Assembly: GCA_025936755.1 (NCBI GenBank)
Contig: JAICSS010000004.1
Span: 62,001 to 126,000, forward strand
Source of the DNA: Solirubrobacterales bacterium
GTDB lineage: Bacteria > Actinomycetota > Thermoleophilia > Solirubrobacterales > 70-9
Direction: 5' to 3'
DNA: 64,000 nucleotides
The notes beneath the pieces were generated by a model. It did no database searches, was not told where the DNA came from, and saw nothing but the letters and a program-made list of their open reading frames with translations. This document shows positions 3,132 to 25,046 of this stretch, piece by piece (the stretch's first letter is position 1; every line of letters starts with the position of its first letter). The translations under genes were made by a program, and so were the position numbers.

Positions 3132-4649
3132 CTAAACCCGCGTGCTCGCAAAAGGCAAAGGCCACCGCGGCCCAAACAGCCGGGTTCCTTTGTGCAGATG
3201 GGGATTGGCCGCTCTGGCGTTGATGCAGGGCTCGCCGGGCGCGGCGTTAGCGCAAGAGGGAGCGGGCGAGCGCTCGGTCCGAGCCCCAACCCGGAAGTGA
3301 AAGGTGGCAGGCGGCCCCTTGACTCCGCCCGCGCCGATCGCCCGCACCCGGAAAAAGGTCTTGCCCCTGCGGACCCGGTAGCGCCTCGGCGAGGTGCAGG
3401 CTCGGTAGCGATGGCCCTGCAGCTTGCACTGGAAGCGAACGACCTTGCCGATCCCGCGGAAGCGAAAGGTGACCTTGGACCCGCCCTTCTTCACGTCGAC
3501 CCGTTTCGCCGGGTGGCGGGTGATCACGACGCGCGGGCGCTTGCCGTCGCCGCCCGGCGACTGTGGCTTCTCGACGGCGAAGGGATCGGTCGAGGTCATC
3601 ACCTGGTAACGCTGGCCGGCGGCGGCGCAGAAGGAGGCGGTCGGGCAGGAGATCCCGAACATCGCGTTGCCGTCGTCGCCCCCGAACGGGATCACGTTCT
3701 GGAACGACCACGACCCTTCTCCCCCGTCGGGATCGGTGGAGGCGAGGACGTCGCCGTTGTCGTCGACCGCGACGCAGGCGGATATCGCAGGGCAGGAGAC
3801 GCCGGTGACCGGCAGGCCGGTGCCGGCATCGAAGGCCTTCCAGCCGCCCGCGCTGCCCGGGGCCGAGGCGGTGAGGATCCTGCCGGCGTTGCCGGTTACG
3901 CAGAGGCCGGCCCCGGGGCAGGAGATTCCGTTGAGTGAGCTTTCGCCGCCCGGCGCACCCAGCGAGCGCCAGGCGTCCGCGCCCCCGGAGGGGTCGTCGC
4001 TGGCGACGATCTGGCCTTCGTTGCCGACCGCGACGCAGAAGCTCGGCGACGGGCACGAGACGCCGCGCAGGTCGACCGGCTGCGCCAGCTGGGTGACCGC
4101 CCAGGCCGAGCTGTCGCCGGTCGGGTTCGAGGAGGTGAGCACCTTGCCGCCATAGCCGACGACGACGCAAAAGGAGACCGCCGGGCAGGAGACCCCGAGC
4201 ATGTGGATGTTCGGGCCGCTTTCGGCCTCCTTGACGACCTTGAAGGTGGAGGGCCCGCCGGCGGGGTCGGTACTGGTGTAGAAGCGGCCGTCGAGGCTGG
4301 CGGCGACGCAGAGGCCGGCGGTGGGACAGGCGATGCCGCGGATCTGGCCGCCGCCGTAGGTCGCTTCGCCTTCGACCCCGGGAAGATCGACCCCTCCCCC
4401 GGGCTTGCCGATCTTCCAGGCCGAGGCGCCGCCGGTCGGGTCGGTGGAGACGGCAATCGCGCTGTTGCCGCCGACCGCGACGCAAAGGGAGGAGCTGGGG
4501 CAGGACATCCCGTAGAAGGAGGCGTTCACTCCCCCGGCGGGCAGCTGCACCACGGACCACTCCGAGGCGTTCGCCGCGCCCGGAGCCAACCCGGCAAGAA
4601 CCAGCGCGAGCAGGCCCGCCGCCGCAAGTCGTCTTCCCCCCAGCCTCAT
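3132..4649 (-). CDS. Secreted seven-repeat (propeller-like) protein
   Basis: About 505 residues with a signal peptide (MRLGGRRLAAAGLLALVLAG, cleavage near ANA-SEW). It contains seven copies of a roughly 46-residue repeat, each starting with (S/A)CP followed by four residues and a second Cys, then a short strand and (T/A)S(T/D)DPxGG, e.g. SCPSSSLCVAVGG. Seven repeats suggest a seven-bladed beta-propeller with one disulfide per blade. A basic linker (about 365-395) leads to an Ig-like domain (VTFRFRGIGKVVRFQCKLQG). The last roughly 45 residues are low-complexity and may be spurious. The ATG at 4649 follows GAGGTGG and is preferred over an in-frame TTG at 4661. Function is unknown; a surface binding role is inferred. 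Confidence 0.8.
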   Translation of the reverse strand: MRLGGRRLAAAGLLALVLAGLAPGAANASEWSVVQLPAGGVNASFYGMSCPSSSLCVAVGGNSAIAVSTDPTGGASAWKIGKPGGGVDLPGVEGEATYGGGQIRGIACPTAGLCVAASLDGRFYTSTDPAGGPSTFKVVKEAESGPNIHMLGVSCPAVSFCVVVGYGGKVLTSSNPTGDSSAWAVTQLAQPVDLRGVSCPSPSFCVAVGNEGQIVASDDPSGGADAWRSLGAPGGESSLNGISCPGAGLCVTGNAGRILTASAPGSAGGWKAFDAGTGLPVTGVSCPAISACVAVDDNGDVLASTDPDGGEGSWSFQNVIPFGGDDGNAMFGISCPTASFCAAAGQRYQVMTSTDPFAVEKPQSPGGDGKRPRVVITRHPAKRVDVKKGGSKVTFRFRGIGKVVRFQCKLQGHRYRACTSPRRYRVRRGKTFFRVRAIGAGGVKGPPATFHFRVGARTERSPAPSCANAAPGEPCINARAANPHLHKGTRLFGPRWPLPFASTRV

Positions 4650-4667
4650 CGACAACGACAACCCACC

Positions 4668-5222
4668 TCAGCCGAGCTGGTTGCGGTCCTGCCCCCACTC
4701 CGTCTCCAGCAGCCCGTAGACGACGCTGTCGAGGTAGCGGCCGCCGACCAGCTCGGCCTCGCGCAGGAGCGCTTCCTCGCGGAAGCCGAGGCGCTCGGGG
4801 ATCGCCCGGCTGCGGGCGTTCTCCCGCGCGCACTGGATCTCGAGCCGGTGCAGCTCCCACTCGTAGAAGACGTGGTCGAGCAGGGCGTTGACGGTCGTGG
4901 TCATCGTCCCCCGCCCCTGCGCGTCGGCGGCCAGCCAGTAGCCGAGGCTGGTGTTGCGGTTGACCCAGTCGATCGCGTGGAAGCCGACGACGCCGACGAT
5001 CTCGCCGTCGGGTTCGACCGCCGCCTGGAAGCCGTCGTCGCGGATGATCTGCTCCTCGGCCTCGGCGAGGAAGCGCTCGGTCCCCTCGCGGTCCTGACCC
5101 GCCGCCCAGGGCATCCACCGCGCCAGGTGCTCGCGGTTGCGCTCGACCAGCGCCTGCAGCTCGTCCGCGTCCTCGATCTCCAGCGGCCGCACGCCGAGCG
5201 AGTCGAGCCGCGGCGAGAGCAT
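4668..5222 (-). CDS. GNAT acetyltransferase, RimJ/RimL-like
   Basis: 184 residues with a complete GNAT fold: LGVRPLEIEDADELQALVER at the N-terminus, GEIVGVVGFHAID, the acetyl-CoA-binding motif A region AADAQGRGTMTTTVNALLDH, and LHRLEIQCARENARSRAIPERLGF, which resembles ribosomal-protein N-acetyltransferases and related small-molecule acetylases. The substrate cannot be read from sequence. Its ATG overlaps the TGA of the upstream TetR-family gene (TGATG), so the two are almost certainly translated together. It may therefore belong to the transcription unit that starts at alkB. Confidence 0.85.
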   Translation of the reverse strand: MLSPRLDSLGVRPLEIEDADELQALVERNREHLARWMPWAAGQDREGTERFLAEAEEQIIRDDGFQAAVEPDGEIVGVVGFHAIDWVNRNTSLGYWLAADAQGRGTMTTTVNALLDHVFYEWELHRLEIQCARENARSRAIPERLGFREEALLREAELVGGRYLDSVVYGLLETEWGQDRNQLG

Positions 5223-7603: not shown

Positions 7604-10031
<2,428 letters not shown>

Positions 10032-10039
<8 letters not shown>

Positions 10040-10439
10040 CAGACTTGGTCGTGAACTTCGACGGGCACTTCGTGATCAGGGTTTCCGGTTCGCCGACGAA
10101 GCCGGCGCCCTCGACGGTGCCGGTGAGGACGATCTCGCGGCCGCCGCGGAAGGGGTCGGGGACGGTGCCCTCGTAGGTGACCGGCAGGCTCTTCCCCTTG
10201 CCGTCGCGGTCGACGACGCGGAAGGCGATGCCGTTGCCGTCGCGCTTGATCGAGCCGTTGACGACCGTGCCGGTCAGCTCGGCGCTGGTCCCGGGCGCGG
10301 CGTTGAGCAATTCCGAGGGCTCCTTCGCCTCGGTCGAGGCCGAGAACGAGGTGTAGATGAGCGCCACCGCGAGCAGCACGGCGACGCCGAGCGCGACGAC
10401 GAGCCGGATCTTCCGCTTCCGCTGAGGGTCCACAGGCAT
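10032..10439 (-). CDS. ccmE: Heme chaperone CcmE, cysteine-type variant
   Basis: 135 residues: a membrane anchor (about 12-30, VVALGVAVLLAVALIYTSF), then the OB-fold barrel (GTVVNGSIKRDGNGIAFRV, EIVLTGTVEGAGF). Classical CcmE binds heme covalently through the His of HxxxY. Here the equivalent position reads LITKCPSKF, so Cys replaces His, as in the known CxxxY class of CcmE', and the conserved Tyr is Phe. The protein would hold heme for CcmF, encoded immediately downstream. The gene seems leaderless: GATAAT lies 5 nt before the ATG, inside a perfect inverted repeat. Confidence 0.9.
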
Positions 10440-11262: not shown

Positions 11263-12285
11263 TTACGGCAGCAGCAGGCGCACGAGGCGCCAGTAGGCGC
11301 GGAGGGCGAGGCGGGCCGGCCAGCTGCGGGCCAGCGGCGAGATCAGCTCGGAGTCGAGGTCCGGCGTCAGCGCCGCGGCGAACTCGCCGGCACCGATCTC
11401 GCGCCGGCGCTGGACGGCGCGGCGCTCGCGCAGCAGCCGCGGCAGCCAGCGGAGGAAGGCGAGGTCGGCGCGGAGCTTCTCCCTGCCCCAGCCGCCGGCG
11501 GCGGCGACCGGCAGCAGCGCCAGCTCGGTCGCCAGCAGCGCCGGCGCGAGCAGGGCCAGCAGGGCGCCGGGATAGGTGCGGACGAGGAAGGCGAGGCGGT
11601 TGCGCTCGAGCCAGAACCACTTCTCGGCGTTGGCGCCGAACTCGTAGTCGTGGGCGACCACCGCGGCGGGCTCGATGCCGACCGCGTGGCCCGCCATGCG
11701 GATCCGCACCGAGAGGTCGACGTCCTCGTGGTAGAGGAAGAACTCGGGAGGAAAGCCGCCGATCTCCCTCCAGGTTCGCAGCGGCACCGCCAGGCAGGCG
11801 CCGGAGGCGACAGGCACCTCGCCCGCCGGCGGCGCCTGCTCGAGCGGCAGGCCGTGGCCCCCGGCCCAGGTGATCCCGGTGAAGTGCAGCGGGTTGCCGC
11901 CCGAGTTGACGCGCTTCCCCTCGCCGTCCGCGACCAGCGCCTGCCAGGCGCCCCAGCCGCGACCCTCGACCCAGGGCCGGCGGATCGCCTCGCCGAACCC
12001 GGGCGTCGGCGCCGCGTCGGGGTTGAGGATCACCAGCAGGTCGCCGCGCGCCGTCTCGGCGCCGGCGTTGACGCCGCCGGTGAAGCCGGCGTTCCGCCCC
12101 ATCGTCACGAGCCGCGCCCGCGGCGCCAGCTCGCGCACCGCCTCGGCGTCGCCGTCGCCGGGGTTGTTGTCGACGACGATCAGCTCGTCGCCATCGCCCA
12201 GCTCCGGGAGCAGGGCGGGAAGGGTCCTCTGGAGATCGCCGCGGTTCTCGTAGGCGACGATCAGGACTGAGAGCGTCGGGCGCAC
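11263..12285 (-). CDS. Family 2 glycosyltransferase (rhamnosyltransferase-like)
   Basis: 340 residues with a GT-A fold: LSVLIVAYENRGDLQRTLPA, then IVVDNNPGDGD, NAGFTGGVNAGAETARGDLL and the metal-binding ILNPDAAPTP (DxA variant of DXD). Later GACLAVPLRTWREIGGFPP and FFLYHEDVDLSVRIRMAGH mark the acceptor/catalytic region. The C-terminal 100 residues include a hydrophobic patch (about 230-262) that may associate with the membrane. Enzymes of this group add rhamnose or similar sugars to surface polysaccharides; the sugar cannot be told here. The GTG start has AGGCTA/TAGCCT 8 nt upstream and no Shine-Dalgarno sequence. Confidence 0.88.
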   Translation of the reverse strand: MRPTLSVLIVAYENRGDLQRTLPALLPELGDGDELIVVDNNPGDGDAEAVRELAPRARLVTMGRNAGFTGGVNAGAETARGDLLVILNPDAAPTPGFGEAIRRPWVEGRGWGAWQALVADGEGKRVNSGGNPLHFTGITWAGGHGLPLEQAPPAGEVPVASGACLAVPLRTWREIGGFPPEFFLYHEDVDLSVRIRMAGHAVGIEPAAVVAHDYEFGANAEKWFWLERNRLAFLVRTYPGALLALLAPALLATELALLPVAAAGGWGREKLRADLAFLRWLPRLLRERRAVQRRREIGAGEFAAALTPDLDSELISPLARSWPARLALRAYWRLVRLLLP

Positions 12286-12346: not shown

Positions 12347-15325
12347 CTACTTCTTGTCCTTCTTCTTTCCGCAGGAGACGACGTTCAGCTTGAACTTGTT
12401 GTTCTTCACCTTCTTGCCGTTCTGGCCCTTGATGTTCAGCACCGCACGCTGCGGCCTCTTGCAGGTGTTGACCGAGTTGACCAGGAGGCCTTTCCTGCCG
12501 CCCTTCATGTTGAGGACGAACTTGCTCACCGGCACGTCCGGCGTCGAGCGGAAGACCGTCTTCAGTCCTCCGGTGCTGCCGCTGCCGATCACGCCGCGCA
12601 GGTGGATGTCCACCTGGCCGCGCAGGTCGACCAGCAGGTCCGGCAGTTCGTTGTCGGACGAGACGAGGTAGACCTTGCCCTGCAGCTTGTCTTCCAGCAG
12701 CGGCGTCCTCGCGAACGCGTTGCCGTAGACGGATGCCTTCGGGCAGTTGTGCTCGGCCAGCTGCGGCCGCGTGCAGACGGTGCCGATGTGGCCCTGTTCG
12801 AGGAACAGCGAGCGCGGCATGGTCAGGGCCGTGCGGGCGATGTTGGCGTCGCCGCCGCGGGCCTTCAGTTCCGCCTTCAGGCGCGGGAACTTGTTCCGCG
12901 TCGTCGGGCCGAACAGCCTCACCCGCAGCTTCGGCTTGAAGCCGAGCTTGCCGCACCCGATCACCTGGAACGGGTCGTTGACGGCGTAGGAGCTGAACGC
13001 GGCCGGGTTGGTCGGGTCAGCGCCGCCGCCCTCGATCGACCCCGTCGTCGCCTGCGGATCGCAGTTCGTCGGGTTGAGCATGAACCGCTCCTTGTCGATG
13101 TTGAGGTCGATCGAGCGCAGGTCCAGCTTCACCCCGCCGAAGACGTCGGGAATGACGTCGGAGACGGCGTGGATCTGGGCGGTTTCCGGATCGACGTTGA
13201 GCGCGATCCGGACGACCACGGTGCCGAGGTCGAACGGACCGGCCACCGCCGGCGTCACCGTGACCAGCGAGACCGGTGCCCCCTTGTAGGGGCCGGCCAG
13301 GTAGGCCCAACCGCCGAGCTGCAGCGGGTTGGAGCCGGTGCCGGACACCGTCGACACTGTTCCGAGCAGGCTGGCCAGCGAGCAGCTCGGATTGCTCCGC
13401 TCTTCCTGGCCGCTCTTCGCGGCCGCGGCCGCGATCGCCGACTCCGGGCAGTAAGGGATCCCGGCGAGCCTGCCGGTCAGCCCCTTCGGCAGCGTCACGT
13501 CGACCACCTTCAGCTCCTGCTCCCCGTCCCGGCGGCCGATGTGGACGTGGAAGGGCGAGAAGGCCGCGGCCTCGTCGCTGTTGGTTTTCGCCTTGTAGGC
13601 CGGAGCGAACTTCCGCTCCGCCATCGTCTTCGGACAGGCCCCGCCGGTCGGGTCGGTGCTGAGGGTGACGGTCGAGTCGACCGGCTTCAGTTCCCCGGGC
13701 CGCGCCCACGGTTCGAAGCGGCTGGTGCCCGTGGCCGAGCAGACCGGCGGGCTCGTCAGCACGTTTTTCCCACCGTCGAAGCGGACCCTGATCTCTTCGA
13801 ACGGCACCTGCGGCAGCCCCGACGGCAGCTGACCGAAGAACTCGTTGCTCAACCGGTCGTCGATCACCGCGGTCAGCTCGCCGGTGGCCTTGTCGGCCTT
13901 GACGTGGCCGACCAGGCGGGCGTCGATCCCCTCCTGTTCGCTCTTGGCTTCGAGCAGGATCCGGAACTGTTCGCCGGATTCAGGGTCGCGGCTCTTCTGC
14001 TCGCCGACGTAGACGTCGCCGACCAGCGGCTCCGCCAGCGGCGCCGATTCGACTTCGACCGTGCCGATGTCGGACTCCGCCGGGCATTCGTTGTCCATCA
14101 CCCGGACGCCCTTCTTGAATTGGGCGTCCGAGCAGGCGGCGAGGCCGTTGGCCCCGGAGGGGTTGATGCCCATCCCCTTCGGCAGCACGACTTCCGCTTT
14201 GCGGACGTGCGATTGCGACTGGTTTTCGTTGCCTTCGGTCGCCGGGTCGAAGGGCAGTTTCGCCGTCACCGACGCCGGAGCGGGCGAGTCGACCGCGTCG
14301 GTGCCCGGGTTGACGTCGAGCGCCGGGTCGAAGGGGACCGTGTCGCAACCGGTCTGCTGGACCCGCACCCCGCCGACCTTCGGCGGCTTCGCCTCGACCG
14401 GGGTCGAGCCGTGCGGGAATTCGGGGTCCGGATCGCCGTAGGACTCGGCCCGGAACCAGGTCGAGTAGAGGTGTTCGAACTGCGGGTCGTTCGGGTCGAA
14501 GCAGGTGGTCGGGTTCGTGAGGTACGTCCCGTCACCGCTGCGGCCGAAGCTGACCAGGCGGCTGATCAGGGTCGAGAGACCGGTGATTTCCGCCGTGTTC
14601 GGCAGTCTGATCGTGAAGCTCTCGTGGAAGTCGCTCTCCCAGGCGACTTCGGTTTCGAGGAAGACCGGCACTTTTTTGCCGATCACGAATCCGAGTTTCG
14701 CCGGTTCGCCCGGAGCCGGGACCAGGTTGTACACCTGCACCTGGGTGTTGCCGGGGGTCGGTGGGATCACGAACCCTTTGGGCGGTTTGAACCCAGGGGC
14801 GATTTCGACTTCTTCTTTGTTGGTCACGAGGGTGACCTTCTCTTCGCCGGTCTGGGTCTCCGGTTTGCACTGCGGTTCGTAGATCTGCGGCGAGGGCGAG
14901 AAGAGGAATTCGGAGAGCGCGCACCGCGAAGGCGTCGCCTCCGGGTTCACGGTCAGGCCCGGCGGCAGGTCGCTGCGCAGGGTCTTGATCGTCCGTTCGC
15001 TGATCGGTTCTTCGATTTCCGCCAGCAGGCTCCCCGGGGGGAACGGCGGCGAGGGCAGCGGCGCAAAGGGTTTGTGCTTGATGATGTACTGCGTGAAGCC
15101 GATCGGCGGGTGCCCGGCTGCCGTCGTGTAGTAGATGGTCGGCGTTTCCACCGAGCAGTTTTTCCCGGCTTCCTGTTCCTGGGTGCAGGTACCTGCCTGG
15201 AAGCCCTGGTCAGCCGTTTCGTTCTGCGGCTGGATGATGTCCGGGGTGTCCGCATGTGCCATGACCGGCATTGCGAACAGAGCCCCTAAACACAGTAAAA
15301 GCAGCGCAAGCGAGCGCTTTCCCAT
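12347..15325 (-). CDS. Large secreted four-module paralog A
   Basis: 992 residues, function unknown. A signal peptide (cleavage near AHA-DTP) follows a start with AGGAGG spaced by 5 nt. After an N-terminal domain (QGFQAGTC, TTAAGHPPIGFTQYIIKHK), four related modules each open with (L/M)Px(G/S)(L/M), then Cys, then CPxxS, then LxGxVY, and close with a phenylalanine strand and Cys: about C135-C275, C398-C529, C626-C755 and C851-C955. Module ends read LTNPTTC, LTSPPVC, LNPTNC and LVNSVNTC. The C-terminal tail is basic (CGKKKDKK). It is the last of three tandem same-strand paralogs. No catalytic motif or membrane anchor is seen. An extracellular or wall-associated, disulfide-rich structural or binding role is inferred. 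Confidence 0.85.
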   Translation of the reverse strand: MGKRSLALLLLCLGALFAMPVMAHADTPDIIQPQNETADQGFQAGTCTQEQEAGKNCSVETPTIYYTTAAGHPPIGFTQYIIKHKPFAPLPSPPFPPGSLLAEIEEPISERTIKTLRSDLPPGLTVNPEATPSRCALSEFLFSPSPQIYEPQCKPETQTGEEKVTLVTNKEEVEIAPGFKPPKGFVIPPTPGNTQVQVYNLVPAPGEPAKLGFVIGKKVPVFLETEVAWESDFHESFTIRLPNTAEITGLSTLISRLVSFGRSGDGTYLTNPTTCFDPNDPQFEHLYSTWFRAESYGDPDPEFPHGSTPVEAKPPKVGGVRVQQTGCDTVPFDPALDVNPGTDAVDSPAPASVTAKLPFDPATEGNENQSQSHVRKAEVVLPKGMGINPSGANGLAACSDAQFKKGVRVMDNECPAESDIGTVEVESAPLAEPLVGDVYVGEQKSRDPESGEQFRILLEAKSEQEGIDARLVGHVKADKATGELTAVIDDRLSNEFFGQLPSGLPQVPFEEIRVRFDGGKNVLTSPPVCSATGTSRFEPWARPGELKPVDSTVTLSTDPTGGACPKTMAERKFAPAYKAKTNSDEAAAFSPFHVHIGRRDGEQELKVVDVTLPKGLTGRLAGIPYCPESAIAAAAAKSGQEERSNPSCSLASLLGTVSTVSGTGSNPLQLGGWAYLAGPYKGAPVSLVTVTPAVAGPFDLGTVVVRIALNVDPETAQIHAVSDVIPDVFGGVKLDLRSIDLNIDKERFMLNPTNCDPQATTGSIEGGGADPTNPAAFSSYAVNDPFQVIGCGKLGFKPKLRVRLFGPTTRNKFPRLKAELKARGGDANIARTALTMPRSLFLEQGHIGTVCTRPQLAEHNCPKASVYGNAFARTPLLEDKLQGKVYLVSSDNELPDLLVDLRGQVDIHLRGVIGSGSTGGLKTVFRSTPDVPVSKFVLNMKGGRKGLLVNSVNTCKRPQRAVLNIKGQNGKKVKNNKFKLNVVSCGKKKDKK

Positions 15326-15396
15326 TCATTCCTCCTCGTTTGTCCCTCAACGAGGACGCCCCCTGTAGCGCCCTGGGTACTTCCCTCCCGCGAAGG

Positions 15397-15424
15397 ACAT
15401 TACACGGTACTAGGGGCGTTTCAA
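15397..15424 (-). promoter_or_regulatory. Candidate promoter of paralog A
   Basis: Read leftward, TTGAAA (15424-15419) and TAATGT (15402-15397) are separated by 16 bp, about 70 bp upstream of the ATG. This leaves room for a 5' leader that contains the strong AGGAGG site. Confidence 0.4.
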
Positions 15425-15435
15425 GTGACTCGGTG

Positions 15436-15491
15436 GGTTACTACCTTGGTAACCGTGACACTGATCTGTGACATGACACTTAACGGTGTCA
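15436..15491. promoter_or_regulatory. Two palindromes upstream of paralog A
   Basis: GGTTAC-N7-GTAACC occupies 15436-15454. TGACAC-N6-GTGTCA occupies 15474-15491. Between them GTGACA is repeated directly at 15455 and 15468. They lie just upstream of the candidate -35 of paralog A, a usual place for activator binding. The 222-bp gap 15326-15547 holds no gene. Confidence 0.45.
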
Positions 15492-15547
15492 TTGTCGTCG
15501 TCGCCAGCAGTGAAAAGATGCGGCTTCGGTACTTCCGAAATACCGGA

Positions 15548-18430
15548 CTAGCGCTTCTTCTTTTTCCCCTGCTTACCGTGGCAGGGAGTGCGCAGCTTCG
15601 GCTTGCTGTTGGCTTTCTTCCCGTTCTGGCCTTTGATGCGGATGATCGCCCGCACCGGTTTCGCGCAGAGGTTGGTCGAGTTGACCAGGAGGCCCTTCTT
15701 CCCGCCCGGCAGCGTCATCACGAACTTCGTCACGGGCACGTCCGGCACCCGGCCGAAGGTGGTGCGGATGCCGCCGTGGAAGCTGTCGATGCGGCCGACG
15801 AGGTCGATGTCCACCTGCCCCTCGAGGTGGGCGACCAGGTCCGGCAGCGTGTTGTTGGAGGAGCGCAGGTAGACGGGCCCTTCCACCGGTTTCCCGAGCA
15901 GCGGCGTGAACGCGCGCGCCCTGCCGTAGATCGACTTCTTCGGGCACTTTTCTTCGGCGAACTGGACCCGCGTGCAGACCTTGGCCAGGCTCGCCTGGTC
16001 GAGGAAGAGCGCGTGCGGCAGCGCCACCGAGGCCTTGCGGATGTTCGCGTCCTTGCCTCGGGCCTTGAGGACCGCTCGCAGCCTCGGGTTCTTCGCACGC
16101 TGCGTCTTCCCGAACAGCCTCAGCTTCAGCTTCGGGTGGAACTTGAGCTTGCGGCAGCCGCCGTTCCTGTAAGCGACGGCGACCTTGAAGGCGGAATAGG
16201 AGGACGGGTTCAGCGGATCGGCACCGCCGCCCTTGATCTCCCCCGCCGTCGCCCCCTTGCGGCAGTTGGTGCCGTTGAGGGTGAAGTCGTCGCGGTTGAT
16301 GTTGAGGAAGACCGAGCGGATGTCGAGCTTGGTGCCGCCGTAGACGTCGGGAATGTCGTTCGTCTTCGGGTGGATCTGGGCCGTTTCCGGATCGAGGAAG
16401 AAGGGGACGCGGACGACCACGTTGCCGAGGTCGAACGGACCCGCCAGCGCCGGCGTCACGACGAGCAGCGAGAGCGGCGCGCCCTGGTAGCGCCCGGCGA
16501 GGTAGGCGTCGCCATCGATCTTCAGCGGGTCCGGCCCGGTGCCCGCCTGCACGACGGCCGACCCGACCCGGCTCTCCTTCGGGCAGGCGGCGTTCTTCTT
16601 CTCCGCCGCCCCGGACCGGCTCTCGGTCTTCGCGATCGCGTCGGGCGGGCAGTAGGGAACGCCTTTCAGCTTCGCGGTCGCCCCTTCCGGCAGGGTGATG
16701 TCGAGGCCTTTCAGCTCCTGCTCCCCCGGCGGGCGGGTGATGTGGGTGGAGAACGGGGTGAAGGTTTTCGCCCGGTCGCTCTTCGGCGTCGCCTCGAAGC
16801 CGGGCGAGAAGGGCCGGCCCGCCATCGTCTTCGGGCAGGGGCCGCCGCCGGGCGCGTTGGGGAGGTCGAATTTGCTCGACGGCGTCGCCGGGGCATTGCC
16901 CGACCAGGGCTCGAGCTGGCTGGCGGTCGTGTTCGGACCGCAGGTCGGCGGGCTGCTCAAAGCGGCCTTGGGCCCCCCGTCGATGCTGAGGCGGAAGGTG
17001 GTGAAGGGAACCTGCGGCAGCCCGTGGGGCAGGTTGTCGGCGTTGCCGCCGCGGGTCACCGCCTTCGCCGGTTCGTCGAAGACCGCGGTCAGCTGGCCGG
17101 TCTTCGCGTTGGCGACGGCGTTGCCCACCAGCCGTACCGAGATCCCGTAGCGGGCGGACTCGGCGTCGACGAAGATGCGGAACTCTTCGCCCGACTCGGG
17201 GTCGCGGCTCTTCTGCTCGCCGACGTAGACGTTCCCGGCCAGAGGACCTTCCGGCAGCGGCGGCGACTCCACCGTAACCGTGCCGACCTTCGAAGCCGCC
17301 GGGCAGGCGACCGGGTTGCGCGTCCCCTTGCCGAACTGAGCGTCGCTGCAGGCGGCGAGGCCGTTGGCCGCAGAGGGGTTCAGGCCCATGCCGGCCGGCA
17401 GGGTCACCCGTGCCGTCCTCATCGTCGAGGTTTCCTGGCCCGTCGCGCTCGGTTCGATCGGCAGCTTCACCTCGGTCGTCATTCCGGCCGGGGAGTCGAC
17501 CTGGTTGGTGCCGGGGTCGGTCCCGAGCGACGGTTTGAAGGGAATCGAGCCGCAGCCTTTCGGGCTCGTCCCCGGCGGCAGCTTCGCCTCGACGAAGGGC
17601 GAGCCGTTCGGGAAGCTCGGGTCGGGGTTCTGCAGCGAGTCGGCGCGGGCGTAGGTCGAGTAGGTGTGCTCGAAGGCCCCGGCCGGCTGGAAGCAGGTGC
17701 TGGGGTTGGTGAGGAAGTAGCCGGTGGCGGCCGAGCCGGCGCGACCGTTGAAGACGAGCCGGTTTTTCAGCAGCTTCACGTTCGAGACCTTGGGAACGTG
17801 GATCGTGAAGCCCTCGTGGTAGTCGGAGTCGTAGGCGACGTCCGCTTCGAGGTAGATGTCGCTGGGCGGCTCGGTGAGGACCGGGTTGATGACGCTGAAC
17901 CCGAAGCGCGCCGGCTCGCCGTTCTTCGGTTTGACGTTGTAGACGAGCGCCGCGACCGTGATCGGCGCCGCGAGCAGTTCGGGGGTGACGGTGACCAGGC
18001 TTTTCCCGACCTGACTGGCGGCCGGGCAGGTGGCGGCATCGGGGTGCTGGCCAGGCCCGACGTCGCAGCGGGGGATGGCGCCGGGGTTGACGCTGAGGCC
18101 GACGGGCAGGTCGACCCGCAGGGTCTTCATGTCCACTTCCGGCGCTTCGGTGCCGATCCCCGTCAGCGGGATTTCAACCGTTTTGTGCCGGACGATGAAC
18201 TGGGTGATCCCGAATGGGGGATGGCCCGCGGCGGTTTCGTAGAACTCCGCTTTCGGGCTGTCGGGAGCGCAGGTTTCGGTGTTGCAGGTTCCCGCCTGCC
18301 AGCCGTCGTCCGCGCTGGGCGGGTTGTTCTGCGGCGAGAAGACGACTTCGCCGGCCTGCGCCGCCGCGGGCGCGAGAAGGACCCCGAGAAAGACGGCAAC
18401 CGACAGCATCTGTGCGACCCATTTCCTCAC
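15548..18430 (-). CDS. Large secreted four-module paralog B
   Basis: 960 residues, paralogous to its two neighbours over the full length. It starts at GTG 18430 (MRKWVAQMLSVAVFLGVLLA signal peptide, cleavage near AQA-GEV). An internal ATG at 18409 would still keep a signal sequence. Shared blocks include DGWQAGTCNTETC, FYETAAGHPPFGITQFIVRH, LPAGMGLNPSAANGLAACSD, GNVYVGEQKSRDPESGEEF, YLAGRYQGAPLSLLVVTPA and RVPDVPVTKFVMTLPGGKK, ending in a lysine-rich tail (GKQGKKKKR). The four-module, Cys-bracketed plan is as in paralog A. Only 54 bp separate it from paralog C, so co-transcription is likely. The role is unknown. Confidence 0.85.
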   Translation of the reverse strand: MRKWVAQMLSVAVFLGVLLAPAAAQAGEVVFSPQNNPPSADDGWQAGTCNTETCAPDSPKAEFYETAAGHPPFGITQFIVRHKTVEIPLTGIGTEAPEVDMKTLRVDLPVGLSVNPGAIPRCDVGPGQHPDAATCPAASQVGKSLVTVTPELLAAPITVAALVYNVKPKNGEPARFGFSVINPVLTEPPSDIYLEADVAYDSDYHEGFTIHVPKVSNVKLLKNRLVFNGRAGSAATGYFLTNPSTCFQPAGAFEHTYSTYARADSLQNPDPSFPNGSPFVEAKLPPGTSPKGCGSIPFKPSLGTDPGTNQVDSPAGMTTEVKLPIEPSATGQETSTMRTARVTLPAGMGLNPSAANGLAACSDAQFGKGTRNPVACPAASKVGTVTVESPPLPEGPLAGNVYVGEQKSRDPESGEEFRIFVDAESARYGISVRLVGNAVANAKTGQLTAVFDEPAKAVTRGGNADNLPHGLPQVPFTTFRLSIDGGPKAALSSPPTCGPNTTASQLEPWSGNAPATPSSKFDLPNAPGGGPCPKTMAGRPFSPGFEATPKSDRAKTFTPFSTHITRPPGEQELKGLDITLPEGATAKLKGVPYCPPDAIAKTESRSGAAEKKNAACPKESRVGSAVVQAGTGPDPLKIDGDAYLAGRYQGAPLSLLVVTPALAGPFDLGNVVVRVPFFLDPETAQIHPKTNDIPDVYGGTKLDIRSVFLNINRDDFTLNGTNCRKGATAGEIKGGGADPLNPSSYSAFKVAVAYRNGGCRKLKFHPKLKLRLFGKTQRAKNPRLRAVLKARGKDANIRKASVALPHALFLDQASLAKVCTRVQFAEEKCPKKSIYGRARAFTPLLGKPVEGPVYLRSSNNTLPDLVAHLEGQVDIDLVGRIDSFHGGIRTTFGRVPDVPVTKFVMTLPGGKKGLLVNSTNLCAKPVRAIIRIKGQNGKKANSKPKLRTPCHGKQGKKKKR

Positions 18431-18484
18431 CTGGACAGGGGAGTACCCGGGTGTTCGGCCGGTTAATCCGCCAGCGGCCGCCCA

Positions 18485-21424
18485 CTAGCGCTTGTGCTTG
18501 CGCGACTTGCGGCAGCTCGGCGTCTGCAGCGGCAGCTTCTTCACCTTCAGGACCTTGCCGTTCTGGCCTTCGAAGTTGAGGAAGGAGCGGTTGCGGCGGC
18601 CGCAGAGGTTATGCGAGTTGACCAGGAGGCCTTTCCTGCCGCCCTTCATCTTCAGCACGAACTTGCTCACGGGGACGTCGGGGACGCCGGCGAAGACGGT
18701 CCTCATCCTCTGCTTGGAGGAGCTGATGACGCCGCGCAGCCGCACGTTGACCTGACCGTGCAGGTCCGCCAGCAGGTCGGGCAGTTCGTGGTCGGAGGAG
18801 ACCAGGTAGACGGGGCCTTCCACCTTCTCGTCCAGCAGCGGGCTTTCCGCCCAGGCGTATCCGTATACGGAGCGCGCCGGGCAGGCCGCGGCGGCGAGCT
18901 GCACCCGGGTGCAGACGGTGCCGATGTGGCTCTGGTCGAGGAACTGCGAGTGCGGGAGCGTCAGCGCCGTGCGCCGGATGTTGGCGTCGCCGGGCCGGGC
19001 GACGAGGGTCGCCTGGAAGGCCGGGTGCCCGTTGCGACGCATTTTCTTGCGGCTGCCGATCAGCTTCGTGAACAGCTTCGGCTTGAAGCCGAGCGCTTCG
19101 CAGTCACTGGCCTGGAAGGGGGCGCTGACGCCGAAGGCGCTGAAGGCCGACGGGTTGGTCGGGTCCCCGCCGCCTCCGTTGAGGACGCCGGTGATGGCGA
19201 AGGGTTCGCAGCTGGTCGGGTTGAGGGTGAAGTCGGGCCGGTCCATCTTCAGGTCGACCGAGCGGACGTCGAGCAGGGTGCCGCCGAAGACGTGGGGAAT
19301 CGGGTCGGCGACGGCGTGGATCTGCGCCGTTTCCGGATCGACGAACAGGGCCACCCGCACCACGACCGTGCCGAGGTCATACGGGCCGGCCGTGGCGGGG
19401 GTGACCACTGCGAGGGAGAGAGGAGCCCCGTGGTAGGGGCCCGAGAGGAAGACCTTGCCCTCGATCTCGAGGGGCGAGGGCCCGGTGCCGGCGGCGACCG
19501 CGGCGGTCCCGACCTGGCTCGCGGCGGGACAGCTCGAGGCCGCCTTCTCCTCGGCGCCGGACCTGGCGGCGGCAGCGGCGAGCGCTCCCTCCGGGCAGTA
19601 GGGAATGCCGCGGAGCTTGCCGGTCATCCCGGGCGGGAGGACGACGTCGGCGCCCTTCAGCTCCTGCTGGCCATCCGGGCGCTCAATCCGCACCGAGACC
19701 GGGCTGAAGGCGCCGGCCTTCGAGCTCGCCGGCCCCGCCGCGAAGGCAGGGGCAAACGGTCGCTCGGCCAGCGATTTTGCGCATTTGCCGCCTCCGGGCG
19801 CATCGGTAAGGGTGAAGCTGCTGCTCGGGGTCGCCGGCGGGTTCCCGGACCAGGGGGTCATCACCGCGTGGCCTTTGTTCGGTCCACAGGTGGGAGGGCT
19901 GCTCAGGACCGCGCGGGCGCCGCCGTTAAAGGCGAGGTCGAAGGAGGTGAACGGCACCTGCGGGGTTTCGGCGATCGTCGTCTCGAGCTGGCCCGTGACC
20001 GGGTCGGCGTGCACGTTGCCGACCAGCCGCACCGAGATCCCGTAGCGATCGGATTTGGCCTCGATGAAGATCCGGTACTCCTCGCCGGAGGCCGGGTCCC
20101 GGCTCAACTGCTTGCCGGCGTAGACATTGCCTTCCAGCGCTTCTTCGGGCTGTGGGTTCAATTGGTCGACCAGCGGAGGAGATTCGATCTTCACCTGACC
20201 GATGATCGACTGCGGCGGACAGGCAACCGGGTTCCGGGTGCCCTTGCCGAACTGGGCATCGGTGCAAGTCTGCAGCCCGTTGGCGGCGGAGGGGTTGAGG
20301 CCCATGCCCTGCGGCAGGGTCACCGTCGTGTTCCGGGTGTGGGAGCTGTCCTGCCCGCCGGCTTCTTTCAGGTGGGGGACGGCTACGTCGACTTCGGCCG
20401 CCGCCGGCGAGTTCACGTTCGCGGTGCCGGGCTCGACGTCGATCGTCGGGTGGTAGGGGATCGTGTCGCAGTCCTTGGGTTCGGTCCCCGGCCCGCTGGT
20501 TTCGCTCAGAGGCGGGATCGGCGACTCGAAGTAGGAGGAGTCGTTGGGGAAGTTCGGATCGGGGTCGCCGACCGAGTCGGCGCGGAGGAAGGTCGAGTAG
20601 ATCGACCCGGAGGGTCCGCCGGGTTCCTCCCCCGGCGTCCAGTCATCGGCGTAGGCGGGGCCGAAGCAGGTGGTCGGCGTGGTCAGGAAGGTCCCGTCGC
20701 CGGAGCGACCGTTGAAGACCAGGCGGTTTTTCAGGATCAGCCCTTTTTCGCCGCCGAGCAGTCCGAGGATGCCGCCGAGGCCTTCCGGCAGGGCGGCGGG
20801 CACGTGGATCGTGAAACCCTCGTGGTAGTCATCGGACCAGTCGACGTCACCTTCGAGGAAGACTTCGTTGCCGGCGAGTTCGAGCCCGAACCGAGCCGCC
20901 TCGCCGGCTTTAGGTTCGACGTTGTAGACGGGGACTTCGGTCAGTGGCGCCGTTGGCGGCGAGGGGGTTCCCAGCGGCGGCATCGAGACCGTCACCTGGC
21001 TTTTGCCCACTTCCGTGAGCGGCGAGCAGCCCGAAGCGCCGGCTTCGAAGGTCACGAGTTTGCAGCGGGGGGTCGCGCCGGGATTGACGCTGAGTCCGAC
21101 GGGTAGGTCGACCCGGACGGTCTTCAGTTCGTCGACCGGGGTTTCGCCGGGCGGTTCGTTCTTGATGATGAACTGGGTGAAGCCCCAGTTGGGGTGGGCG
21201 CCGGCGGTTTCGAAGAACTGGTCCGGGGTCGCGATCGAGCACAGTCCGGCGCCGGGTTCGGGCGGTTCGGCGTTGCAGGTCCCGGCCTGCCAGCCGGAGT
21301 CGGCTTCCGGGTGGGCCGGATCGCTCGGGGCGATGATGTCGCCGGTATCGGCCACGGCCACGGGGGCCGTCACCAGCGGCAGGAAGAAGCACAGGCAGAG
21401 CAACAGCGCGCGCGCGTCCAGCAT
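18485..21424 (-). CDS. Large secreted four-module paralog C
   Basis: 979 residues, first of the three tandem paralogs in the direction of transcription. ATG 21424 is chosen because GGAGG precedes it by 9 nt. Earlier in-frame starts (21448, 21541) run into the divergent regulator's promoter. The signal peptide is MLDARALLLCLCFFLPLVTA with cleavage near AVA-DTG. The family blocks are present: SGWQAGTCNAEPPE, DYHEGFTIHVP, FNGRSGDGTFLTTPTTC, LPQGMGLNPSAANGLQTCTD, LPPGMTGKLRGIPYCPEG and VPDVPVSKFVLKMKGGRKG, with a basic tail (CRKSRKHKR). It shares its upstream region with a divergent winged-helix gene. Unknown function; export is well supported. Confidence 0.86.
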   Translation of the reverse strand: MLDARALLLCLCFFLPLVTAPVAVADTGDIIAPSDPAHPEADSGWQAGTCNAEPPEPGAGLCSIATPDQFFETAGAHPNWGFTQFIIKNEPPGETPVDELKTVRVDLPVGLSVNPGATPRCKLVTFEAGASGCSPLTEVGKSQVTVSMPPLGTPSPPTAPLTEVPVYNVEPKAGEAARFGLELAGNEVFLEGDVDWSDDYHEGFTIHVPAALPEGLGGILGLLGGEKGLILKNRLVFNGRSGDGTFLTTPTTCFGPAYADDWTPGEEPGGPSGSIYSTFLRADSVGDPDPNFPNDSSYFESPIPPLSETSGPGTEPKDCDTIPYHPTIDVEPGTANVNSPAAAEVDVAVPHLKEAGGQDSSHTRNTTVTLPQGMGLNPSAANGLQTCTDAQFGKGTRNPVACPPQSIIGQVKIESPPLVDQLNPQPEEALEGNVYAGKQLSRDPASGEEYRIFIEAKSDRYGISVRLVGNVHADPVTGQLETTIAETPQVPFTSFDLAFNGGARAVLSSPPTCGPNKGHAVMTPWSGNPPATPSSSFTLTDAPGGGKCAKSLAERPFAPAFAAGPASSKAGAFSPVSVRIERPDGQQELKGADVVLPPGMTGKLRGIPYCPEGALAAAAARSGAEEKAASSCPAASQVGTAAVAAGTGPSPLEIEGKVFLSGPYHGAPLSLAVVTPATAGPYDLGTVVVRVALFVDPETAQIHAVADPIPHVFGGTLLDVRSVDLKMDRPDFTLNPTSCEPFAITGVLNGGGGDPTNPSAFSAFGVSAPFQASDCEALGFKPKLFTKLIGSRKKMRRNGHPAFQATLVARPGDANIRRTALTLPHSQFLDQSHIGTVCTRVQLAAAACPARSVYGYAWAESPLLDEKVEGPVYLVSSDHELPDLLADLHGQVNVRLRGVISSSKQRMRTVFAGVPDVPVSKFVLKMKGGRKGLLVNSHNLCGRRNRSFLNFEGQNGKVLKVKKLPLQTPSCRKSRKHKR

Positions 21425-21463
21425 CGGAATTTTCCTCCCAAGAAGCATCCTCGACGAAAAGAC

Positions 21464-21505
21464 TACCCGAAAATAATGACTTGAATCAGTAATTTTGGGT
21501 AATAT
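21464..21505. promoter_or_regulatory. Operator-like inverted repeat and leaderless promoter
   Basis: TACCCGAAAATAA (21464-21476) and TAATTTTGGGTA (21490-21501) form a near-perfect inverted repeat in the 87-bp divergent gap. The rightward promoter overlaps it: ATGACT (21476-21481), 18-bp spacer, TAATAT (21500-21505), then 6 nt to the ATG at 21512. A protein bound here would affect both the regulator and paralog C. The segment is strikingly AT-rich for this genome. Confidence 0.55.
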
Positions 21506-21511
21506 CGGCTC

Positions 21512-21958
21512 ATGCCAACCCATAATGGACATTCCCCCCACTCCATCCCCGTAAACGACGATTCCTCTGCCGCCTCACCGCAGAATGGGCTAAACGGCAA
21601 TGGCCACTCCGCCCTTCCCGTCAACTGGGAGCGACTGGCCCGGGCGACCGCCCATCCCCTGCGCGTCTCGATCCTCGAAATCCTCGGGATCGACGGCGGC
21701 CGGGTCCTCTCTCCCAGCGATCTCAGCCGCGAGCTGCAGATTCCCCTCAGCAACACCAACTACCACGTCACCGAGCTGGCGAAAGCGGGCTTGATCGAAC
21801 TGGTGCGGGAGCGCCAGGTGCGCGGCGCGACCGAGCACTTCTACCGCCTGCCCGACGCCGCGCTTGCCGCCGAAGCCGAGGACACCGAAGAGGGCGCCGA
21901 GGACGAGGGCAGCGAGGAGCCTGCCGAAGGAACGAGGCGCGCCTGGGCTATGGCCTAG
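21512..21958 (+). CDS. Winged-helix (ArsR-like) regulator
   Basis: 148 residues. A disordered Asn/Ser/His-rich start (about 1-35) precedes a clear winged helix: WERLARATAHPLRVSILEIL, LSPSDLSRELQIPLSNTNYH, VTELAKAGLIELVRERQVRG. The tail (about 115-148) is strongly acidic (EAEDTEEGAEDEGSEEPAEG). It has no Cys pair of the metal-sensing ArsR type, so the signal is unknown. Its divergent position and shared operator make it the likely regulator of the secreted paralogs, which is inference. It has no Shine-Dalgarno sequence; a -10 hexamer lies 6 nt before the ATG. Confidence 0.82.
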   Translation: MPTHNGHSPHSIPVNDDSSAASPQNGLNGNGHSALPVNWERLARATAHPLRVSILEILGIDGGRVLSPSDLSRELQIPLSNTNYHVTELAKAGLIELVRERQVRGATEHFYRLPDAALAAEAEDTEEGAEDEGSEEPAEGTRRAWAMA

Positions 21959-24069: not shown

Positions 24070-24594
24070 GTGAGCTTTCGCTCTGTCATCGCGGTCCTGG
24101 GCGTGCTGGCCGTCGTCGGCCTGCTCGTCTTCGGGCTGGTCGTGAAGGGGTCCTCGGGGCTGGCGATCGGGGATCCGGTGCCGACCTCGGCGCTGCCGCG
24201 GCTGGAAGGGAGCGGAGACGAATCGCTCGCCCGCTATCGCGGCCGCTGGGTGCTGGTCAACTTCTGGGCCTCCTGGTGCGAACCCTGCCGCGCCGAGGCG
24301 CCGGCGCTGGAGAAGTTCCAGCGGCAGCACGGCGGCCCGCGGTTCGAGGTGCTCGGGATCGACACCCGCGACCTCAGCGGCGACGGGCGCGACTTCGTCC
24401 ACGAATTCGGCCTCTCCTATCCCCAGCTGCGGGACGGGGACGGGGGCGCCGCCCACGACTACGGGACCAGCGGCGTGCCCGAGACCTTCCTCGTCGACCC
24501 GAGGGGCAAGCTGCGCCTGCACGTTCCGGGGCCGGTCGACGCTGAAATCCTGGAAGGCTCGGTGGCGCCGCTGCTGCCCGGGGGGAAGTCGTGA
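24070..24594 (+). CDS. ccmG: Thiol-disulfide oxidoreductase CcmG/DsbE
   Basis: 174 residues: an N-terminal membrane anchor (about 5-27), then a thioredoxin fold with the active site FWASWCEPCRAEAP, cis-Pro region TSGVPETFLVDP and the CcmG-like GRWVLVNFW. CcmG keeps the CxxCH cysteines of apocytochrome c reduced for heme attachment on the outer membrane face. The GTG start follows TAGTCT by 9 nt. Its stop overlaps the start of ccmH (GTGA). Confidence 0.9.
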   Translation: MSFRSVIAVLGVLAVVGLLVFGLVVKGSSGLAIGDPVPTSALPRLEGSGDESLARYRGRWVLVNFWASWCEPCRAEAPALEKFQRQHGGPRFEVLGIDTRDLSGDGRDFVHEFGLSYPQLRDGDGGAAHDYGTSGVPETFLVDPRGKLRLHVPGPVDAEILEGSVAPLLPGGKS

Positions 24595-25046
24595 GGGCTC
24601 GGGCAATCGTCTTCGCCGCGCTGGCCCTGGCGCTGCTGGCGCCGGCCGCCGCGGCCGCCGAGCGGGCCTCGCTGACCGAAATCGAAAAGCAGGTGATGTG
24701 CCCCGTCTGCGGCACCCTGCTGCAGCTGGCCGAATCGCCGCAGGCCCAGCGCGAGCGCGTCTTCATCAGCCACCTGATCGACGAAGGCAAGACCGAAGCG
24801 GAAATCAAGGACGCGCTGGTCGTCGAGTACGGCGACGAGGTCCTCGCCCTGCCGCCCGACTCCGGCTTCAGCCTCTCCGCCTACCTCGTTCCGATCCTCG
24901 CCCTGCTGGCCGCGGCGGCGGCGCTGGCGATCGGGGTGCTGCGCTGGCGTCGTGCCGGCGGCGGGCCCTCGGAGGACGAGCCCGCGGCGCCGAGCGAGCG
25001 GGACTCGGAGCGGCTCGACGCCGACCTCGCCCGCTATGACCTCTGA
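24591..25046 (+). CDS. ccmH: Cytochrome c maturation protein CcmH
   Basis: 151 residues: signal peptide (cleavage near AAA-ERA), the redox motif VMCPVCGTLLQLAESPQAQ, helices with INxLIDEGKTEAEIKDALV-like pattern, then a membrane helix (about 96-118) and an acidic tail. CcmH works with CcmG and CcmF to present reduced apocytochrome. Other System I genes (ccmA, B, C) are not in this window. It is coupled to ccmG and converges with the next minus-strand gene, overlapping it by 13 bp. Confidence 0.9.
   Translation: MRARAIVFAALALALLAPAAAAAERASLTEIEKQVMCPVCGTLLQLAESPQAQRERVFISHLIDEGKTEAEIKDALVVEYGDEVLALPPDSGFSLSAYLVPILALLAAAAALAIGVLRWRRAGGGPSEDEPAAPSERDSERLDADLARYDL

Follow-up and report, generated by a model that had tools for sequence, protein, structure and literature searches.

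Long beta-sandwich arrays on exported proteins are an already known kind of architecture. Giant Ig-repeat adhesins of the SiiE/LapA type carry very long tandem beta-sandwich arrays on an exported protein, and MSCRAMM proteins and pilins are exported chains of Ig-like domains (DEv-IgG/CNA-type). BslA, which together with YweA represents the bacterial hydrophobins, has an Ig-like domain and coats biofilms. A strand ending in LP-x-G-L is common to DUF11/isopeptide Ig-like repeats and to the unit described here. The window analysed in this study, a 64,000-nucleotide stretch of DNA from a bacterium of the order Solirubrobacterales, encodes three large exported proteins (A, B and C) composed of such units. 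New here are the four-cysteine unit, its alternating doublet, its restriction to one order and its absence from family libraries. With MSCRAMM proteins and pilins the three proteins share the principle of an exported chain of beta-sandwich domains (here predicted), from which they differ by the lack of LPXTG, by conserved cysteines and by alternating doublets of two domain types. Moreover, the invariant Lys of a CNA/pilin isopeptide bond appears neither among the 50 columns that do not vary in 20 homologues nor among the unit-invariant columns. Compared to SiiE/LapA-type adhesins, as generally known rather than by direct comparison, they are distinguished by a pair of predicted disulfides in each domain, by the alternation of two domain types, by confinement to one actinobacterial order and by many four-domain paralogues. 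BslA and YweA are likewise secreted beta sandwiches, as predicted for the unit, but they are single domains of ~120 residues and their score is weak; to our knowledge, neither carries a four-cysteine pattern like that of the unit.

The locus comprises the following features (window coordinates):

11263..12285, minus strand: GT2 glycosyltransferase, directly downstream of gene A, linkage conserved
12347..15325, minus strand: gene A, 992 aa, with signal peptide, N-terminal Cys pair, units R1-R4 and basic tail GKKKDKK
15548..18430, minus strand: gene B, 960 aa, four-unit paralogue
18485..21424, minus strand: gene C, 979 aa, four-unit paralogue; an in-frame ATG at 21448 is a possible alternative start
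21464..21501, minus strand: 38-bp palindrome with -35/-10-like sequences between gene C and the HTH gene, probable operator/promoter
21512..21958, plus strand: divergent winged-helix regulator (HTH_20/MarR_2), 148 aa, linked to gene C in ten assemblies

The original prediction had described three consecutive same-strand paralogues of 992, 960 and 979 residues that align over their full length, and the coordinates, the common minus strand and a full-length identity of 51-55% (A vs B 51%, A vs C 54%) agree with this. All three N-termini are signal-peptide-like. The Lys/Arg-rich tails that had also been claimed are seen in A, B and C, where the last Cys lies 7-10 residues before the C-terminal end; in the wider family, 46 of the 62 proteins ending with the last unit carry a net charge of at least +3 after their last Cys. 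Neither an LPXTG sorting signal nor a membrane segment was found at the C-termini of A, B and C, which show no recognisable wall anchor. The short basic tail could serve to bind acidic wall polymers.

To examine the internal repeat, an alignment of 20 homologues was split into the four proposed repeats, whose profiles were then compared by HHalign. All six repeat pairs align (E values of 6e-14, 3e-12, 3e-7, 1e-17, 1e-25 and 2e-9), with E at least 0.12 among the column-shuffled controls listed, and a unit HMM finds exactly four units each in A, B and C. The claim of four internal repeats per protein is thus borne out. The unit is ~200-270 aa long and extends beyond the bracket first proposed, as far as its fourth cysteine (C4). 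Across 34 repeat segments from three triplets the columns Cys, Cys, Gly, Pro and Cys are invariant, while Leu-Pro and Tyr are nearly so. The units, which in gene A can be assigned to two types, a and b (see below), lie as follows, all on the minus strand:

14339..15154: gene A unit R1 (a-type), from profile comparison, unit HMM and unit-identity analysis
13628..14344: gene A unit R2 (b-type), from the same three analyses
12947..13633: gene A unit R3 (a-type), AlphaFold2 model with pLDDT 89.5 and pTM 0.86
12362..12952: gene A unit R4 (b-type), from profile comparison, unit HMM and unit-identity analysis
17546..18268: gene B unit R1, from the unit HMM
16829..17551: gene B unit R2, from the unit HMM
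16148..16834: gene B unit R3, from the unit HMM
15569..16153: gene B unit R4, from the unit HMM
20462..21238: gene C unit R1, from the unit HMM
19775..20467: gene C unit R2, from the unit HMM
19094..19780: gene C unit R3, from the unit HMM
18503..19099: gene C unit R4, from the unit HMM

At E <=1, A, B and C are without a match in Pfam and NCBIfam, and for the unit nothing rises above the cut-off in Pfam, NCBIfam, PHROGs or PDB sequences, profiles included. DUF11 (PF01345) matches none of the three window proteins and one of 20 unit-family members (E 0.005). The unit profile matches 28 of 199 genomes of the class and 5 of 396 genomes sampled phylum-wide, all of them within the window bacterium's own order; with 8 or 16 candidates scored per genome, weak cases may be missed in these searches. 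Within the taxonomic family the R4 profile matches 24 of 50 genomes, 11 of the 12 from the window's genus among them, and the window's genome itself holds ten full-length copies. A literature search covering mostly papers outside subscription returned no description of the unit family and nothing on the cell surface of this order. Since the unit is confined to one order in the sampled genomes and has no match in family libraries, it is lineage-specific and appears to be undescribed, in line with the earlier suggestion of a new system of this lineage.

The mature parts of the nine proteins of three triplets contain 18 cysteines each, one N-terminal pair plus four in every unit. All are conserved, the last one aligning within ~1 residue. 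Two two-unit relatives likewise have eight cysteines outside the signal peptide, four per unit. In the alignment of 357 units, drawn from 88 proteins, C1 and C2 are almost never lost. Nine rows have no C3, and eight of these have no C4 either (Fisher p 9e-13, a value that treats rows as independent, while the losses are confined to a few lineages, G528/G573, L053 and L038, and thus represent few independent events). In the ninth row the cysteine is present but shifted by the alignment, and rows without C4 alone have a longer C3-C4 spacing or are cut-off sequences. This co-loss pattern supports a pairing of C3 with C4, while a C1-C2 pairing is proposed purely by elimination; in gene A, C135-C153 and C275-C327 are therefore the likelier disulfides. 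Because the loss of C3 goes along with that of C4 and leaves C1 and C2 in place, brackets of the C135-C275 type are probably not disulfides, and a C1-C3 bond was discarded as unlikely. Hence, of the disulfide-stapled, modular, exported proteins originally envisaged, modularity, export and the presence of predicted disulfides hold, whereas the two bracketing cysteines per repeat give way to four per unit and to a different predicted pairing.

The fold of the unit was modelled by AlphaFold2 for residues 565-793 of A, with 36 aligned units as input. The single-unit model (pLDDT 89.5, pTM 0.86) is a compact beta domain of about eleven strands with a helical insert between C1 and C2. A model of full-length A from only six sequences reached a pLDDT of 39 and was left out of all fold claims. 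The top-ranked structural matches of the unit model are mostly extracellular beta sandwiches. In VIA-align, MSCRAMM domains, pilins, BslA/YweA and cohesins reach Z 5-7.7, with MSCRAMM domains and pilins as best matches (Z up to 7.7 over 138-142 residues, rmsd 3.6-3.7, ~8-9% identity) and cohesins at Z 5.4-6.5; no dockerin was found among the neighbour genes scanned with Pfam. None of these stands out as a relative (Foldseek E >=0.012, VIA Z <8), and a BFVD structure search gave no match at E <=0.001. Since VIA scores below 8 may reflect a common arrangement only, we claim no membership in the matched families; the model points to a beta sandwich that is probably Ig-like.

The unit family ranges from 1 to 32 units per protein. 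Three assemblies of one genus (G528, G531 and G573) encode giant secreted proteins:

G531 C7 (L044/L045), ORF 5704-27372 in joined coordinates, minus strand: 7,223 aa, 32 contiguous units
G528 C7 (L046/L047): open frame of 5,628 aa, 24 contiguous units
G573 C1 (L048): open frame of 4,643 aa, 20 contiguous units

Within these arrays, units an even number of positions apart have an identity of 0.36-0.47, against 0.20-0.23 for odd distances; the alternation is strict and identifies the giant proteins as arrays of an a-b doublet. The four-unit proteins follow the same trend weakly (0.25 for R1-R3 and R2-R4, 0.18-0.23 for other pairs), and the units of two-unit proteins are most like an odd and then an even unit. 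As judged from these identities, the evolutionary block is the doublet, present as (ab)1 in relatives of ~450-600 aa, as (ab)2 in A, B and C and as (ab)10-(ab)16 in the proteins of 4,643-7,223 aa. The giant proteins also carry a basic C-terminal region of ~180 residues.

As far as contigs reach, the gene order HTH(divergent)-C-B-A-GT2-(SDR)-ccmE-ccmF is conserved in the window, in L012/L029, in L030, L031, L032, L033, L034, L035 and L036, and in L027/L028, an IMG/VR contig. At the triplet position of a sister genus there is a single unit-family gene (L039). In a tree B forms a fully supported clade with the sister-genus gene beside it, while A is not resolved as a clade. The kept locus order and the B clade together indicate that the triplication is old and has been maintained. 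On the IMG/VR contig, the only one there with the triplet, a tyrosine-recombinase-like ORF and a tRNA-like sequence (L027 3215-4930) lie just upstream of HTH-C-B-A; the contig thus looks like host DNA beside a provirus, and a viral origin of the triplet was rejected. In the window, the cluster is flanked by ccm genes (7604-10439: ccmF, ccmE; 24070-25046: TlpA/ccmG-like, ccmH), a layout suggestive of an insertion between the two groups; going by their sequences we take these to be cytochrome c maturation genes. In four assemblies B and A are separated by a ~2.5 kb gap, which in the two that were read holds a secreted S15/CocE-type hydrolase (L034 8969-11410, L032 7800-10151). A PepX_C fragment (3900-4979) lies near the L015 paralogue.

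The 38-bp palindrome between gene C and the regulator gene matches only once in the window and not at all in shuffled sequences. It is kept in nine assemblies, with the right half alone in a tenth, and its mean pairwise identity is 0.76 vs 0.38-0.40 for the flanks. It was not found at six other unit-family loci of the genome. Such a pattern agrees with regulation at this locus by the divergent winged-helix protein, whose probable binding site is the palindrome over the shared promoter. The three genes and the glycosyltransferase make up one unit, with transcription running away from the regulator. Together with the HTH-C linkage in ten assemblies, the conserved palindrome lends support to the co-regulation that had been suggested for the triplet. 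The exported proteins may be glycosylated.

Upstream of several other genomic copies lies a gene for a large secreted protein of the NHL, Fn3 or PD40 type, and downstream one for a secreted protein of ~250 aa (companions at L014 9160-9927, L015 7969-8670, L016 3494-4264, L017 7840-8589 and L018 7407-7964). A TetR gene often lies beside these operons, and regulators near several of them combine two TetR_N domains in one chain (L014 16447-17607, L015 15886-17676, L017 10838-12112). One stretch with a paralogue and its propeller partner (L013 7800-15500) has ~60% G+C vs 70-73% in its flanks, which suggests recent acquisition. The companion family is without Pfam or NCBIfam match; it has 15 copies in the window's genome, is strongly expanded in the same genera as the unit and occurs within a few hundred bases downstream of 5 of 10 unit genes. 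An earlier comparison with only six companions gave E values of 0.001-0.2 against the unit. The companion profile (n = 40) aligns with the unit profile (n = 146) at a probability of 93% and E 2.6e-7 (best of 40 shuffles 0.084), with the C1-C2 region in register, which makes it probable that the companion is a remote relative with a single unit.

Export, modular copy number, beta-propeller/Fn3 partners and basic tails taken together argue for a structural or adhesive surface protein. The wall or surface placement suggested at the outset is plausible. On balance we therefore favour, by a modest degree of confidence, the reading of A, B and C as exported structural or adhesive proteins with four stapled beta domains arranged as two a-b doublets. 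A rather unlikely alternative would be extracellular proteins that bind or scavenge glycans, peptides or surfaces together with secreted hydrolase or propeller partners, the domains being cohesin- or carbohydrate-binding-module-like and non-structural. Cohesin modules and adhesin ligand-binding domains among the structural matches would agree with such a role, as would the conserved GT2, the hydrolase in the B-A gap of two assemblies and the many paralogues, which fit ligand diversification. The hydrolase is, however, missing at that position in the window, in L012 and in several other triplets, Gly, Pro and Cys make up nearly all invariant residues, and a conserved aromatic or acidic surface patch was not identified. 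Amphipathic surface-coat proteins acting like BslA are improbable: BslA is the best Foldseek match in the PDB (E 0.012, probability 0.93), YweA is listed as well and both reach VIA Z 6.8-6.9, but TM to query is just 0.26-0.32 (0.26 for BslA) at ~8-10% identity, and BslA comprises one domain of ~120 residues. That the proteins are enzymes of an unrecognised extracellular family we consider very improbable, since, although large secreted proteins adjoin hydrolase genes in some genomes, searches of Pfam, NCBIfam, PHROGs and PDB sequences gave no characterised enzyme family, the number of units ranges between 1 and 32, and of the 50 columns invariant in 20 homologues 41 are Cys, Gly or Pro and none is His, Glu, Lys or Arg.

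In the favoured reading as structural or adhesive proteins, each protein would join four small beta domains, for which Ig-like sandwiches are most likely, into two a-b doublets, with two local disulfides per domain, C1-C2 at the helical insert and C3-C4 near the domain end. Elsewhere in the order the module would be deployed in 1-32 domains, in many copies beside a secreted beta-propeller/Fn3 protein and the single-domain companion, an arrangement that would suit an extracellular surface layer, fibre or adhesin built from several proteins. More tentatively, and with rather less confidence, we suggest an undescribed, order-specific extracellular building system based on one superfamily of disulfide-stapled beta domains. 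In it, single-domain companions, two- and four-domain proteins, of which a genome may have up to dozens, and megaproteins of 20-32 alternating domains might combine with partners of the beta-propeller/Fn3 type to form a fibre or coat at the surface.

In conclusion, the unit brings many secreted but unannotated proteins of an actinobacterial order into one domain family, for which a confident model of a single domain is available. With the doublet and the predicted C1-C2 and C3-C4 disulfides at hand, assembly, regulation and a surface role become directly testable, and array lengths from 1 to 32 domains offer a natural series for studying disulfide-stapled chains.
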